Source: Streptomyces sp. SCUT-3
Lineage (GTDB): Bacteria > Actinomycetota > Actinomycetes > Streptomycetales > Streptomycetaceae
Assembly: GCF_014083985.1 (NCBI RefSeq)
Contig: NZ_CP046907.1
Coordinates: 1,124,501-1,188,500, forward strand
Length of the DNA stretch: 64,000 nucleotides
Direction of reading: 5' to 3'
Shown: one piece after another, positions 15,647 through 20,920 of the stretch
Numbering within the stretch: position 1 is the first letter of the stretch
Layout: the number at the start of each line of letters is the position of its first letter
Notes under the pieces: model-generated
What the model was told of the DNA's origin: nothing
The model's database searches: none
The model's input: the letters and a program-made list of their open reading frames with translations, nothing else
Position numbers and translations under genes: made by a program

Positions 15647-15677
15647 TTGACCTCAACCGCTGTTCATGTTCCAGGAT
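15647..15677 (+). promoter_or_regulatory. MerR/SoxR-type promoter-operator, copy 1 (exporter)
   Basis: TTGACC (15647-15652) and CAGGAT (15672-15677) are separated by 19 bases. The spacer holds TCAAC-N4-GTTCA, so the left half reads CCTCAA as in SoxR boxes. The same architecture occurs at 18306-18336 and 20124-20094. It faces the MFS exporter gene, with about 120 bases to its TTG start. The 302-base divergent gap 15500-15801 otherwise shows no gene. Confidence 0.7.
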
Positions 15678-15801
15678 CTGCGACGGAGAACGCGGACGCC
15701 GTGACGGCCAGGAGGGACACCGGGCGCGCCGCGTGACCGGGCCGGGGGCCTGCGCCCTCCGCCCGAACTTCCGTCCTTCCCCGCCGAACCTGGAGGCCCC
15801 G

Positions 15802-17013
15802 TTGGACACGCCCGTGTCCTTTCCCACCGCCGCCCGCCGCCGTACGACGCTGGCGGTGCTCCTGCTCGCCTCGACCCTGACGGTGATGGCGGGCACCGTC
15901 CTGACGCCCGTGGTGCCCGCCATCCGCAACGACCTGGGGGTCAGTGGCACCGCCGCGGGTCTGGTCCTGACCGCGCACGGCCTCTCCCTGGCCGTGGCCA
16001 GTCCCCTGGCCGGCTGGACGATCGACCGCTGGGGACTGCGGACACCCATGGTCGCCGGACTGCTGCTGTACGGTCTCGCCGGCGGCTCCGGACTGATCAC
16101 GGACTCCTACCCGGCCCTCATCGCCGGCCGCGTGGTCTTCGGCATCGGGGCCGCGGCCGTGTTCGCGAGTACGACGGTGGCGCTGATGGCGCTCTTCCAG
16201 GGTGCGGAACGCGACCGGGTCGCGGGCTGGCGTTCCACCGCGATCGGGCTGGGCGGCGTCCTGTGGCCGCTGATCGCCGGCGGTCTGGCGGACCTGTCCT
16301 GGCACGGCCCGTTCGCCGTCTACCTGATCGGCGTGCCCATCGGCATCGCGACACTGCTCGCCATGCCGCACGTCCCGCCGACGGGGCGCCGCGGCGGCGG
16401 CACCCTCACCCTGCTGCGCACCGCTCCCCGGTTGCTGAACCTGTACGCCCTCTCCATGATCTCCTCCTTCCTGCTGTACGTCCTGATCGTGTTCGTCCCG
16501 CAGCGGTTGGCCGAACTGGAGGTCGGCGACCCCTTCACCATCTCGGTGGTCACCGCCGCCGTCTCGCTGGCCGGCAGCGTCTCCGGCTACTTCTACGGCC
16601 GGCTGCGCGCGCACACGGGGTACCGGGGCCTGCTGGGCACGGCCCTGGCCCTGTGGGGGCTGGCGTTCGTCAACGGCGCGCTGGTCTCGCATCCTCTCGC
16701 CCTCGCCCTGTCAGCCGTCCTCTTCGGTGCGGGCAGCGGGATCTCCGTACCGGCACTGGCGATCATGACCGGCGAGACGGCACCGCCGGCCATGCGCGGC
16801 CAGGCCATGGCCCTGTCCGGGACGGCCAACTTCTCCGGGCAGTTCGCCGCTCCCGTCGTCATCGGACCGTTGATCGGGGCCACCTCCATAACCACCGGAT
16901 TCCTGGTGGCGGCCGGTCTCAGCGCCGTGGTGCTGCTGGTCCTGGCCGTGCTGCGGCCCGCGGTGCCGCCACGCGCGGAGCCGGCCCCCGAACCGGCGGC
17001 CAGGAAGGGCTGA
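15802..17013 (+). CDS. MFS drug/metabolite exporter
   Basis: This is a 403-residue major facilitator superfamily permease with about 12 hydrophobic segments, beginning LAVLLLASTLTVMAGTVLTPVVPAI. The loop motif GWTIDRWGLRTPM after TM2 and the antiporter-type motif region in TM5 (GLGGVLWPLIAGGLADLSW) fit drug:H+ antiporters of the DHA1-like group. It probably exports the finished polyketide and gives self-protection. The open frame reaches GTG 15733, but TTG at 15802 has GGAGG 6 bases upstream and directly precedes the first plausible cytoplasmic N-terminus, so it is chosen. It is probably co-transcribed with the glycosyltransferase. Confidence 0.9.
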   Translation: MDTPVSFPTAARRRTTLAVLLLASTLTVMAGTVLTPVVPAIRNDLGVSGTAAGLVLTAHGLSLAVASPLAGWTIDRWGLRTPMVAGLLLYGLAGGSGLITDSYPALIAGRVVFGIGAAAVFASTTVALMALFQGAERDRVAGWRSTAIGLGGVLWPLIAGGLADLSWHGPFAVYLIGVPIGIATLLAMPHVPPTGRRGGGTLTLLRTAPRLLNLYALSMISSFLLYVLIVFVPQRLAELEVGDPFTISVVTAAVSLAGSVSGYFYGRLRAHTGYRGLLGTALALWGLAFVNGALVSHPLALALSAVLFGAGSGISVPALAIMTGETAPPAMRGQAMALSGTANFSGQFAAPVVIGPLIGATSITTGFLVAAGLSAVVLLVLAVLRPAVPPRAEPAPEPAARKG

Positions 17014-17104
17014 CGCAGGAACGGGCCGGGGCGGGGCGGACGAACGGCCGCGCGTCGACCCGTCCTGGACCTGGTCTCGACGAACGGGTCCGAGGATGGC
17101 CGGC

Positions 17105-18268
17105 ATGAGAATACTCTTCGTATCCGGAGGAACCTCGGGAGTGATCTTCTCGATCGTTCCGCTGGCCCAGGCGGCACGAGCAGCCGGCCACGAGGTGTTC
17201 ATGGCCGGCCCCGAGGACGTGATGCCGATCATCACCCGCGCCGGCCTGCCCGGAGTCCCGGTGACGTCCACGTCGATGATGGACACCCTCCGGGACAAGG
17301 ACGGCAACCGCATCCCGATCCCCACCGACCTGCACGAGCGGTTCCTGTTCAACGGCCGCTGCTTCGGGCGCTTCGCCGCCGCCTGCCTGGAGGGACTGAT
17401 CCCCCTCGCCGACCGCTGGCGGCCCGACCTCGTCGTCGGCGGGGCCCTGGCCTTCGCCGCTCCTCTGATCGCGGCGTACGCCGGCGTACCGTACGTCAAG
17501 CACGCCGTGGACATGGGAGAGCCGCGCACCATCGACCTGGCGGCCGCGTCCGAACTCGGCTTCAGCCTGGAGCGGCTCGGCCTCTACGACATGCCGCGCT
17601 TCGACCTCTTCGTGGACACCTGCCCGCCGAGCCTGCGGGTCTGGGACGCGCCCCCCGCACAGCCCATGCGGTACGTCCCCTACACCACCCCGAAGGCGGT
17701 CGAGCCCTGGATGTACACCAAGGGCGAGCGTCCCCGTGTCATGGTCACCGCCGGCAGCCGGATCACGCCCGACTACTACTTCGACGTCCTGGCCGCGCTG
17801 GTGCAGAAGGTGCAGGACCTGGACGTCGAGCTGCTGGTGGGCGCGCCGGACGACATGGCCGCCGAGCTGGGCCCCCTGCCGGAGAACGTACGGGCCGGCT
17901 GGCTGCCGCTGGACGTCATCGCGCCGACCTGCGACGTGGTGGTCAACCACGCCGGGGGCAACACCGTCCTGGGCAGCATGGCCCACGGCGTTCCCCAGGT
18001 GCTCATCCCCTACCTTCCCTACGTCGTCGACTACAGCGAGCGCCTCACCGAGTACGGTGCGGCCACGCTGATCCGGCCCGGTGAGGACTCCGCCGAGGCG
18101 ATCGCCGCCGCCGTGGACAAGGTGCTGGGCAACCCGTCGTACCGGGAGCGGGCGCACGACATCGCCGAGGAGATGCGGCGGATGCCGGCGCCGACGGACG
18201 TGGTGCGCGCCCTGGAGGAGCTGCGGGAGCAGGGCCGCCGGGAGCCGGCGGCACCGCCCCGGACTTGA
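17105..18268 (+). CDS. Antibiotic-type glycosyltransferase (GT1 family)
   Basis: The 387-residue GT-B enzyme has the N-terminal acceptor domain (MRILFVSGGTSGVIFSIVPL, with the usual position of the catalytic His occupied differently) and the C-terminal nucleotide-sugar motif region VVNHAGGNTVLGSMAHGVPQVLIP (residues about 282-305). It should transfer the NDP-trideoxysugar made by the region's sugar genes to the aromatic aglycone, and is the only glycosyltransferase in view. ATG at 17105 has GAGG at a 9-base spacing. An in-frame ATG at 17096 sits on top of that ribosome site and is less likely. Confidence 0.9.
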   Translation: MRILFVSGGTSGVIFSIVPLAQAARAAGHEVFMAGPEDVMPIITRAGLPGVPVTSTSMMDTLRDKDGNRIPIPTDLHERFLFNGRCFGRFAAACLEGLIPLADRWRPDLVVGGALAFAAPLIAAYAGVPYVKHAVDMGEPRTIDLAAASELGFSLERLGLYDMPRFDLFVDTCPPSLRVWDAPPAQPMRYVPYTTPKAVEPWMYTKGERPRVMVTAGSRITPDYYFDVLAALVQKVQDLDVELLVGAPDDMAAELGPLPENVRAGWLPLDVIAPTCDVVVNHAGGNTVLGSMAHGVPQVLIPYLPYVVDYSERLTEYGAATLIRPGEDSAEAIAAAVDKVLGNPSYRERAHDIAEEMRRMPAPTDVVRALEELREQGRREPAAPPRT

Positions 18269-18305
18269 TCCCCGCTCGGATCCGGCTCGAGGAAGCCGAT
18301 GCCGG

Positions 18306-18336
18306 TTGACCTCAACTGCGGTTGAACCATGAGCAT
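18306..18336 (+). promoter_or_regulatory. MerR/SoxR-type promoter-operator, copy 2 (quinone oxidoreductase)
   Basis: TTGACC (18306-18311), a 19-base spacer and GAGCAT (18331-18336) form the promoter. The spacer contains the perfect inverted repeat TCAAC-N4-GTTGA, and CCTCAA-N6-TTGA matches the SoxR box core CCTCAA-N6-TTGAGG except for the last two bases. It is the most symmetric of the three copies. It lies 95 bases before the GTG of the quinone-oxidoreductase-like gene. Confidence 0.7.
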
Positions 18337-18431
18337 GGGAGCACCGCACCGCTGGAAGCGGTGCTCCCACCCCACGTGGACGTCCGGCCGCTGCGTCGGA
18401 GCCGGCCCCGTGCACCCAGGAGAGGTATGTC

Positions 18432-19343
18432 GTGAAGGCAGCAGCGATCAATTCCTTCGGCGGGCCCGAGGTCGTCGAACTGCTCGACGTGGAGACGCCG
18501 ACGGCCGGGCCGGGGCAGGTCCGCGTGCGGGTGAAGGCCGCCGGGATCCAGGCCGCCGACTGTGCGGTGCGCGGCGGCTGGGCTCCCCCCGGCCAGAGCC
18601 TGGCCTTTCCGCAGAAGATCGGCAACGAGTTCGCCGGCGTCGTCGACCAGGTCGGTGAGGGGGCCGAGGGGTTCCCGGTGGGCAGCGAGGTCCTGGGCTG
18701 GGCCCTCCTGGCGGGCCACGCCGAGTACCTGGTCGTCCCCACCGACCAGATCGTGACGAAGCCCGCGTCGATGCCCTGGCCGGTCGCCGGGGTGTTCTCC
18801 GCTTCCGGCCAGACCGCGCACACCGCGCTGGAGCGGCTGAAGGTGGGGGCCGGCGACACGCTGCTGGTCCACGCGGCGGCCGGGGGCGTGGGAACCGTCG
18901 CCGTCCAGCTCGCGAAGGCCTACGGTGCCACAGTCATCGGTACGGCCGGGCCGCACAACCACGACTACCTGCGGTCCCTCGGGGCGGTCCCGGTGGCCTA
19001 CGGCGAGGGCCTGTCGGACCGGGTGCGGGAACTGGCTCCGCAAGGGGTCACCGCCGCGCTGGACGGCGCCGGCGGCGACGCCGTCGACGTCTCGGTCGAG
19101 CTGGTGGAGGACCGCGACCGGATCGGCACGCTCGTGGCGTTCGACCGGGTCGAGGAGCTGGGCATACTCGGACTGTTCTCGCAGCGTTCCACCACGCGGC
19201 TGCAGCAGCTCGTCGACCTCTACGCGGACGGCAGGCTGCGCATCGAGGTCTCCCGCACGTTCCCGCTCGCGCAGGCCGCGGACGCCCACCGCGCGGTCGA
19301 GACCCGGCACGTCCGGGGAAAGATCGCCATCGTGGTCGACTGA
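18432..19343 (+). CDS. Zinc-independent MDR, quinone oxidoreductase-like
   Basis: The 303-residue medium-chain reductase has a GroES-like N-domain and the NADPH motif HAAAGGVGTVAVQLAKAYGA (residues about 146-165). It lacks the Cys-rich structural zinc loop of alcohol dehydrogenases. Relatives reduce quinones or enoyl groups; in BIQ pathways such MDRs act as enoyl reductases. Being under a SoxR-like promoter supports a quinone-handling role, either tailoring or detoxification. The GTG at 18432 has AGGAGAGG upstream. The ATG 5 bases earlier opens only a two-codon frame. Confidence 0.88.
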   Translation: MKAAAINSFGGPEVVELLDVETPTAGPGQVRVRVKAAGIQAADCAVRGGWAPPGQSLAFPQKIGNEFAGVVDQVGEGAEGFPVGSEVLGWALLAGHAEYLVVPTDQIVTKPASMPWPVAGVFSASGQTAHTALERLKVGAGDTLLVHAAAGGVGTVAVQLAKAYGATVIGTAGPHNHDYLRSLGAVPVAYGEGLSDRVRELAPQGVTAALDGAGGDAVDVSVELVEDRDRIGTLVAFDRVEELGILGLFSQRSTTRLQQLVDLYADGRLRIEVSRTFPLAQAADAHRAVETRHVRGKIAIVVD

Positions 19344-19350
19344 CGCCGGA

Positions 19351-19391
19351 CGGTGGTACCGCACCGCCCGGCGGGCGGTGCGGTACCACCG
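19351..19391. terminator. 20-bp near-perfect palindrome between convergent genes
   Basis: Arms 19351-19370 and 19372-19391 are exact reverse complements around a single central base. It fills the 51-base gap between the convergent quinone-oxidoreductase-like and FrnE/DsbA-like genes. A hairpin with a loop of a few bases would terminate transcription from both sides. Confidence 0.8.
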
Positions 19392-19394
19392 CGG

Positions 19395-20048
19395 TCAGCT
19401 TCCGGCCGCCGCGGTGTGCCGCGCCCAGACCTGCTCCAACATCGCGGACAGCGCGTCCGTCTCCAGGACTCCGTGGACGGCCTCCCGGCCGTCCACCACG
19501 AAGGAGGGGACCGACGTCACCCCGATGCGGGCCGCCACGGCCTCGTCCGCCCGCACCTCGTCGGCGTGGGCGTCCTCCGCCAGCAGGGCGGCCACCTCGT
19601 CGGCGGGCACTCCCGCGTCCTTGGCCAACGCCCGCAGCACCCCGTGGTCGGCGATGTTCCGCAGTTCCTCGTGATAGGCCCGCAGGATGCGCTCCGTCAT
19701 CGTGTCGGCCAGTCCGTGCGACGCGGCGAGCTTCACGAGGCGGTGCGCGTCGAAGGAGTTGACCGGCCGGTAGTGCTGGGGCTGGAGCACGATGCCCTGC
19801 TGCTCGCCCAGCTCTCCGATCCACCGGAAGATGCCGTCCAGTTCGCTCTTGGTGTGCCCGTCCCGGCGCATGGTCTCCTCGAGGGTGTCCCCGGGAACCG
19901 TCGGCTGATGGGGGCGGAGCTCGAAGGCCCGCCACTCGGTACGGATGTCGTCCGCGTGCGGGAAGCGCGCCAACGCGGACTCCCACCGGCGCTTTCCGAG
20001 ATAGCACCAGGGACACACCACATCGGACCAGATCTCTATCGTCAGCAC
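19395..20048 (-). CDS. FrnE/DsbA-like thiol oxidoreductase
   Basis: The 217-residue protein has a thioredoxin-fold N-terminus with the CPWC active site in DVVCPWCYLGK (residues about 8-18), an alpha-helical insertion and the cis-Pro segment VTSVPSFVVDG. It matches the FrnE/2-hydroxychromene-2-carboxylate isomerase group, named after a gene in the frenolicin (aromatic polyketide) cluster. There is no signal peptide, so it is probably cytoplasmic. The frame is open to 20102, but the promoter at 20124-20094 lies inside that extension. The GTG at 20048, with GGGGAAAG upstream, is therefore the supported start. Confidence 0.87.
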   Translation of the reverse strand: MLTIEIWSDVVCPWCYLGKRRWESALARFPHADDIRTEWRAFELRPHQPTVPGDTLEETMRRDGHTKSELDGIFRWIGELGEQQGIVLQPQHYRPVNSFDAHRLVKLAASHGLADTMTERILRAYHEELRNIADHGVLRALAKDAGVPADEVAALLAEDAHADEVRADEAVAARIGVTSVPSFVVDGREAVHGVLETDALSAMLEQVWARHTAAAGS

Positions 20049-20093
20049 AGGACTTTCCCCTCTCGCATCGGCACGACCGTGCGCCTCCGCCGG

Positions 20094-20124
20094 ATTCTGC
20101 AACGTGAACTCCGGTTGAGGTCAA
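20094..20124 (-). promoter_or_regulatory. MerR/SoxR-type promoter-operator, copy 3 (FrnE-like)
   Basis: On the minus strand TTGACC (20124-20119), a 19-base spacer and CAGAAT (20099-20094) repeat the architecture of copies 1 and 2. The spacer begins TCAACCGGAGTTCA. It stands 46 bases before the GTG of the FrnE/DsbA-like gene. This site also decides that start, because the longer open frame would begin within the promoter. Confidence 0.7.
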
Positions 20125-20169: not shown

Positions 20170-20293
20170 AGGTGGCCGAAAGTAAGGCCATGGGGGAAAG
20201 ACCGTGCCGGTCGTTCACGGCCACCGGCCTCCGTTCCCGCCCGCCTTCCGCTCGGGAGGCCGTCTCCGTTCCAGTCATGTGAAAGAGGAACCC

Positions 20294-20920
20294 GTGAACT
20301 CACGACACGTCATCCGCCGGGCCGTCATGGCCTCCCTGCTCGCCGCGACCGGCGCCCTCGCGCTGCCGGGCAGCGCCTCGGCCGCCCCGCTGACGGTGCC
20401 GCTGCTGTGCCCGGTGGACTACAACGGCGAGACCTACGTCCTGAACTACAGCCGCGGCTACGAGGTGACCGCGCCCAGTAACGTCAAGCCGAACCAGATG
20501 TTCACCGTTTCCTACGACCCCGAGCCCATCAACCCGAGGACCGAGTTCAACACCAAGGCCTGGGACGTGACCTTCACGTACAACCTCCCGGCCGGCACCA
20601 AGGTCATCGGCTACGCCCTCACCGGCGGCTACAACCTCAAAGACTCCAAGCAGACCGTGAGCTTCTCCCCCGGCCGGGTGGCCCTCACGGCGACCGGTCC
20701 GTTCACAGCCGGCGAGGACGCGGACGTCCCCACGCTGAACGTCCTGCTCAAGGCCCCGGCCACCGAGGGCGTCGTGACCACCTCGGTGGCCGGCACCAGC
20801 AAGACCGACACCGGTTTCATCTGGACCGCGGAGGACCCGACCACCTTTGAGGTCGGGCAGCTGCCCTGCTACCCGGACCCGGCCAACCCGGTCGTGCTGT
20901 CCCGGACCACGGTCGGCTGA
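20294..20920 (+). CDS. Secreted protein of unknown function with two cysteines
   Basis: This 208-residue protein is of no family I recognise. The first 30 residues form a Sec signal peptide (n-region VNSRHVIRR, hydrophobic MASLLAATGALALPG, cleavage after ASA). The mature part begins APLTVPLLCPVDYNG, is beta-rich in composition (many T/V/Y/G), and has just two Cys, one near each end (LLCPVD and LPCYPD), which could form a disulfide. GTG at 20294 has AGAGGAA upstream; the upstream in-frame extension to 20204 lacks such a site. It lies between redox-type genes and the cluster-edge LuxR gene and ends at a strong terminator. Confidence 0.75.
   Translation: MNSRHVIRRAVMASLLAATGALALPGSASAAPLTVPLLCPVDYNGETYVLNYSRGYEVTAPSNVKPNQMFTVSYDPEPINPRTEFNTKAWDVTFTYNLPAGTKVIGYALTGGYNLKDSKQTVSFSPGRVALTATGPFTAGEDADVPTLNVLLKAPATEGVVTTSVAGTSKTDTGFIWTAEDPTTFEVGQLPCYPDPANPVVLSRTTVG

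Follow-up and report, generated by a model that had tools for sequence, protein, structure and literature searches.

Candidate SoxR-dependent promoters before exporter, quinone-reductase-like and DsbA-like genes in a type II polyketide cluster of Streptomyces sp. SCUT-3

Promoters controlled by MerR-family regulators have a 19-bp spacer that misaligns the -35 and -10 hexamers until the activated regulator untwists the DNA. In the soxS promoter of Escherichia coli, which is recognised by SoxR, the 19-bp spacer comes with an 18-bp dyad whose left arm reads CCTCAA. The SoxR regulon of Streptomyces coelicolor comprises six genes (ecaA-D, SCO2478 and SCO0320ext), a set that contains an ABC exporter as well as a quinone oxidoreductase but lacks DsbA; its inducer is an aromatic polyketide quinone made by the organism itself (PMC4146615). 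Activators of S. coelicolor SoxR include actinorhodin and other redox-active compounds, quinones among them (PMC4146615; PMC5288332). In the granaticin cluster of S. vietnamensis, disruption of the soxR-like gene gra-orf20 raised granaticin three-fold by an unknown mechanism (PMC8733708). The DsbA-like proteins FrnE and GreD are DsbA-family oxidoreductases encoded in type II polyketide synthase (PKS) clusters for aromatic polyketides (PMC4943663). Here, we describe three SoxR-type promoters inside a type II polyketide cluster of Streptomyces sp. SCUT-3, located in a 64-kb stretch of contig NZ_CP046907.1 (positions 1,124,501 to 1,188,500), referred to as the window. They precede a major facilitator superfamily (MFS) exporter gene, a gene of the medium-chain dehydrogenase/reductase (MDR) family and a DsbA-like gene; site and gene coordinates are window positions unless prefixed otherwise.

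15647-15677, plus strand: SoxR-type promoter 1, TTGACC-TCAACCGCTGTTCATGTTC-CAGGAT, upstream of the MFS exporter gene; imperfect 18-bp dyad CCTCAAC-CGCT-GTTCATG
18306-18336, plus strand: SoxR-type promoter 2, TTGACC-TCAACTGCGGTTGAACCAT-GAGCAT, upstream of the MDR gene; dyad CCTCAAC-TGCG-GTTGAAC
20094-20124, minus strand: SoxR-type promoter 3, TTGACC-TCAACCGGAGTTCACGTTG-CAGAAT, upstream of the DsbA-like gene; dyad CCTCAAC-CGGA-GTTCACG

A motif search of the window for TTGACCTCAAC-N4-GTTSA returned exactly three occurrences (15647 plus, 18306 plus and 20124 minus), and the promoter sequences given by the first-pass annotation, a model's reading of the bare sequence, proved correct letter for letter and in position and strand. 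All three sites are intergenic and oriented toward genes with sensible starts. Each has the 19-bp spacer typical of the MerR family, which begins with TCAAC and carries GTTSA four bases further. The dyads span 18 bp in the layout CCTCAAC-N4-arm, the left arm matching CCTCAA at six of six positions at every site. When up to three mismatches were allowed, the 20-bp pattern matched three times in the 64 kb as compared to a mean of 0.13 in shuffled sequences, and none of 100 shuffles reached three. A scan of the complete genome (6,075,149 bases, 6.08 Mb), as the first-pass annotation had proposed, revealed four copies of the exact 18-mer core TTGACCTCAACNNNNGTT, three of them within this 4.5-kb stretch. 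A wider SoxR-type pattern, TTGACYTSAASNNNNSTTSA, likewise matched four times, with the same three sites here, while its reversed control gave no match. Together with the conservation, recurrence and genome-wide evidence presented below, these features make it highly probable that the three sites are SoxR-dependent promoters, for which a redox-active polyketide would be the likely inducer.

The linear plasmid NZ_CP108163 of Streptomyces sp. NBC_00158 carries a collinear block of these genes with 78% identity at the DNA level. There, the MFS gene is preceded by the orthologous site TTGACC-TCAAGTGCGCTTCAGCCTG-AAGCAT and the DsbA gene by TTGACG-TCAACTGCGGTTGAGGTTG-CAGAAT. That is, two of the three sites are kept though the intergenic DNA around them has diverged. 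In the exporter site, the innermost bases of the two arms have switched jointly, C..G becoming G..C, and thus the dyad is kept. The plasmid has no SoxR above the profile cut-off, and its boxes are nonetheless retained, which argues for control by a SoxR encoded at another place in the genome and favours the housekeeping protein described below.

Further clusters were retrieved via the glycosyltransferase (GT) encoded next to the exporter and then scanned for boxes; a scan of genome contigs with DsbA yielded no relatives, and the LLM gene led to named relatives. In the comparison set, the genome is the sole member of its genus, and its family includes Streptomyces-like genera. In 38 sequences (window, flank and related cluster loci; 791 kb in total), a generalised motif found 29 sites and its reversed version none; the count is favoured by the shaping of the motif on some of these sites, the reversed control being equally permissive. 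Most of the 29 sites lie directly upstream of DsbA, MDR, MFS or flavin mononucleotide (FMN) reductase genes in the correct orientation. In five clusters (L101-L105), soxR follows DsbA, and a TTGACC-N19 box located ~70-100 bp upstream of DsbA heads the pair; an equivalent box precedes DsbA in L247. In four of the five (L101 and L103-L105), a second box points away from the GT gene. The exporter gene behind a box was identified in L102 and L103 only: in L103, the gene after the second box encodes a 14-helix DHA2-type exporter of a subfamily other than that of the window exporter, and in L102 another DHA2-type exporter gene lies 3' of a further box. A box also precedes a DsbA-soxR pair in Streptomyces sp. 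LBL and an MDR-soxR pair in Actinoplanes cyaneus. Moreover, a divergent box with 19-bp spacer lies within ~20-70 bp of the coding start in ~25 soxR genes from the family. A candidate MerR-type regulator from the naphthocyclinone cluster, ncnR, listed as MerR (AlnR6/Gra-orf10), was not used as its best match is a response regulator.

Boxes elsewhere in the SCUT-3 genome precede two MDR quinone reductases (5486548 and 5545189), a transketolase (803692) and an ABM-domain protein (3130156). Among the published Streptomyces SoxR sites are those of a monooxygenase and a quinone oxidoreductase, to which S. avermitilis adds a transketolase (PMC4146615). Thus, boxes before exporter, quinone-reductase and monooxygenase/redox genes, as known from Streptomyces SoxR regulons, are also found in this genome, providing independent support that the motif is a SoxR box here. 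Site conservation, linkage to soxR and to the target families, and the regulon-like genes behind other boxes all support the MerR/SoxR-type control suggested by the first-pass annotation. Elsewhere in this genome (L122:4074-4566), the gene of a small MarR-like protein with no match in Pfam lies behind a weaker box, TTGACC-TCAACTGCGCTTCGAGTTT-TACGGT.

Two proteins of the genome exceed the cut-off of the SoxR equivalog model TIGR01950 (195 and 223 bits versus 116.9), and both contain the [2Fe-2S] cysteine motif CX2CXCX5C, so that the search for a soxR gene with Fe-S cysteines that had been proposed with the sites met with success twice. The housekeeping SoxR (G000:C1 5110117-5110590) falls together with the common SoxR of Streptomyces and matches the SoxR fold of structure 2zhg (E=5.5e-49). 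The second soxR (G000:C1 1116672-1117118) lies 23 kb from promoter 1. A profile search agreed with the first-pass annotation that the window contains no MerR gene, but this soxR, only 7.4 kb left of the window edge, had been missed. It is divergent from an FMN reductase gene and has a box of its own, TTGACT-TGAACCAAGGTGCAAGGTG-GAGAGT, with a 19-bp spacer. Its clade has R for H in the recognition-helix stretch SAL(H/R)FYE, and the half-sites are mostly of the CTTGAAC type. The FMN reductase/second soxR pair (G000:C1 1115794-1117118; L027:11294-12618) sits where ordinary chromosome genes give way to the polyketide cluster, and a DDE_5 transposase-like gene (L027:13225-14418; window approximately -6776 to -5583) separates the second soxR from the polyketide genes.

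Across the family, SoxR clades (L213-L240) differ in box half-site (CCTCAAG/C, CTTCAAG, CTTGAAC) together with recognition-helix residues, and this set represents natural material for studying SoxR specificity. Second soxR copies in six genomes (L225-L230 in G001, G004, G013, G040, G048 and G078) have a stop codon within the profile match and probably encode a shortened C-terminus; they keep perfect divergent boxes.

Several observations weigh against SoxR control of the three sites. The right arm agrees with TTGAGG at only four of six positions at each site. NBC_00158 lacks an equivalent of promoter 2: its MFS, GT and MDR genes have one box between them, the MDR gene lying closely 3' of the other two. 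A second MDR gene of that cluster does have a box of its own, as do MDR homologues in other clusters. The soxR most closely linked to the sites has relatives with a different half-site. Perfect boxes are present in 237 of 370 SoxR-positive as compared to 3 of 26 SoxR-negative family genomes (396 in total; reversed-motif control 0), a correlation that is confounded by kinship and has p=0.06 within one genus. Finally, the first-pass annotation had expected genes of the type controlled by SoxR in S. coelicolor, which holds for the quinone oxidoreductase and for the exporter, an ABC protein there, but not for DsbA, which is absent from that regulon (PMC4146615). On balance, conservation, recurrence, the regulon-like boxes and the two SoxR proteins make SoxR the best-supported regulator.

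Which of the two SoxR proteins would act at the sites is less clear-cut. The left arms are perfect CCTCAAC, while the right arms mix the half-site types of both proteins. Small half-site matrices give sites 1, 2 and 3 scores of 14.7, 15.0 and 12.8 for the housekeeping type versus 14.4, 14.4 and 10.9 for the paralogue type, values too close to separate the two. We lean slightly toward the housekeeping SoxR as regulator. The flanking paralogue could instead be the cluster's own sensor, also controlling the divergent FMN reductase, a possibility that we regard as real but less probable. Its position at the left flank of the cluster, with its own 19-bp-spacer box, would fit this role, and its clade recurs in clusters for glycosylated aromatic polyketides (beside DsbA in L109/NBC_01471, as well as in G061 and G353). 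One box of this clade (L321, CCTCAAC-CAAG-GTTCAAC) resembles promoter 2, and on the opposite strand sites 1 and 3 have the right arms CATGAAC and CGTGAAC, close to the clade's CTTGAAC. Against this stand the pure CCTCAAC left arms, matrices that do not discriminate, and an orthologous plasmid cluster that has boxes and no SoxR. The mixed half-sites, with CCTCAAC on the left and TGAAC/TTCAAC-like sequences on the right, might even be operators for both paralogues, the housekeeping protein and the flanking one with its different DNA-binding type. We consider this rather unlikely; if true, one promoter would integrate general redox stress and product-specific sensing, perhaps because the two proteins compete or form a mixed dimer.

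The 19-bp spacer is a feature of MerR-family promoters in general, and the genome has 18 MerR-domain matches above cut-off, so that a non-SoxR member sensing the product directly, similar to TipA or BmrR, could be envisaged. This is improbable, as the gene adjoining such boxes in relatives is repeatedly soxR, no further MerR gene lies in or near the cluster, and the other boxes of the genome precede SoxR-regulon-like genes. One might also ask, given the imperfect right arms and weak -10 hexamers, whether the three similar sequences arose by chance or as a repeat and have no regulatory meaning. The shuffles and the reversed-motif controls, which gave no match in the genome, the family genomes or the related clusters, led us to reject a chance origin, and the retention of sites amid diverged flanks in the orthologous cluster speaks against it as well; we give this explanation next to no weight.

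The SoxR-dependent reading draws further detail from the genes behind the sites and from a hairpin next to promoter 2:

15802-17013, plus strand: MFS exporter gene (PF07690, E=2e-49); start TTG after GGAGG, reading frame open from GTG 15733
17105-18268, plus strand: EryCIII-like glycosyltransferase gene (PF06722/PF21036), directly 3' of the MFS gene
18336-18371, plus strand: hairpin immediately behind the -10 of promoter 2; near-perfect 12-bp stem, -31.4 kcal/mol, z -4.4
18432-19343, plus strand: MDR/quinone-oxidoreductase-like gene (PF08240 and PF13602, ADH_N/ADH_zinc_N_2); start GTG after AGGAGAGG
19395-20048, minus strand: DsbA/FrnE-like oxidoreductase gene (PF01323, DSBA, E=2e-38); GTG start at 20048

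Matches to MFS_1, ADH_N/ADH_zinc_N_2 and DSBA bear out the products that had been assigned to the three targets. The MFS start was chosen by comparison with the annotated orthologue at L047:23000, and the best NCBIfam match of the MDR protein is the PIG3 quinone-oxidoreductase subfamily (TIGR02824, 143 bits, under its cut-off). The gene order MFS-GT-MDR with short gaps is common to the window and NBC_00158, and the GT gene is probably co-transcribed with the MFS gene. The hairpin begins where the -10 of promoter 2 ends, and the expected start point therefore falls within its left arm; it could be a terminator for MFS-GT transcripts that spares those begun at promoter 2. Next to the DsbA gene, a putative secreted protein without Pfam match is encoded at 20204-20920 on the plus strand, and its homologues adjoin DsbA homologues in L047, L101, L103-L105 and L241 (32-73% identity).

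The location of the sites inside a polyketide cluster was borne out as well: KS-alpha and KS-beta ketosynthases, an acyl carrier protein and an aromatase/cyclase (Polyketide_cyc) define a type II cluster, and the left window edge runs through its pair of ketosynthases (ketoacyl-synt matches at G000:C1 1124798 and 1123557). Ketoreductase, SARP and sugar genes are also present.

From these data we infer SoxR binding, redox activation and the nature of the inducer as follows. With their over-long 19-bp spacers, the three promoters would be nearly silent at rest. A SoxR dimer may occupy the CCTCAAC dyad between -35 and -10, and oxidation of its [2Fe-2S] clusters would untwist the DNA. By analogy, the oxidant is most likely the product of this type II PKS cluster, presumably a redox-active (quinone) aromatic polyketide, or else an intermediate of the pathway. 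Once oxidised, SoxR would switch on the MFS exporter, probably along with its glycosyltransferase neighbour, and also the DsbA-like protein and the quinone-reductase-like MDR. Activation of SoxR by the accumulating product would mean that export and redox handling begin as the product builds up. It is a natural reading, suggested by known systems, that a redox-active product would induce its own export.

The sites share the 19-bp spacer and the CCTCAA left arm of an 18-bp dyad with the E. coli soxS promoter, and the housekeeping SoxR, their likelier regulator, has the SoxR fold; in contrast, no soxS step would be needed here, the right arms are degenerate, and arm position 7 is C rather than G. 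Similar to FrnE and GreD, the window DsbA-family gene sits in a type II PKS cluster; no description of SoxR-box control of FrnE/GreD-type genes was found in the literature searched. The loci L101-L105, one of them from S. lateritius, look granaticin-type, with a boxed DsbA-soxR operon and a boxed exporter. In the window, however, the DsbA gene stands alone rather than in an operon with a soxR of the cluster, and the nearest soxR is the distant one of another clade. The boxed promoters and the presumed targeting of an exporter, a quinone reductase and other redox enzymes are as in the S. coelicolor regulon. SoxR sensing of an endogenous polyketide and a soxR-like gene in the granaticin cluster are already known. 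Novel features are the in-cluster boxes on exporter, MDR and DsbA genes, the fact that this combination recurs while exporters and SoxR clades vary, and a second SoxR encoded next to the cluster. The same logic thus recurs with non-orthologous exporters in related clusters, providing concrete candidate targets for gra-orf20 in the granaticin producer, and the motif can be used to predict silent clusters with redox-active products and their self-protection genes. Whereas the known targets of S. coelicolor SoxR are six separate loci, with an ABC exporter among them, here three boxes lie within the polyketide cluster, before MFS exporter, MDR and DsbA genes, which would extend the S. coelicolor scheme to promoters inside the producing cluster itself.

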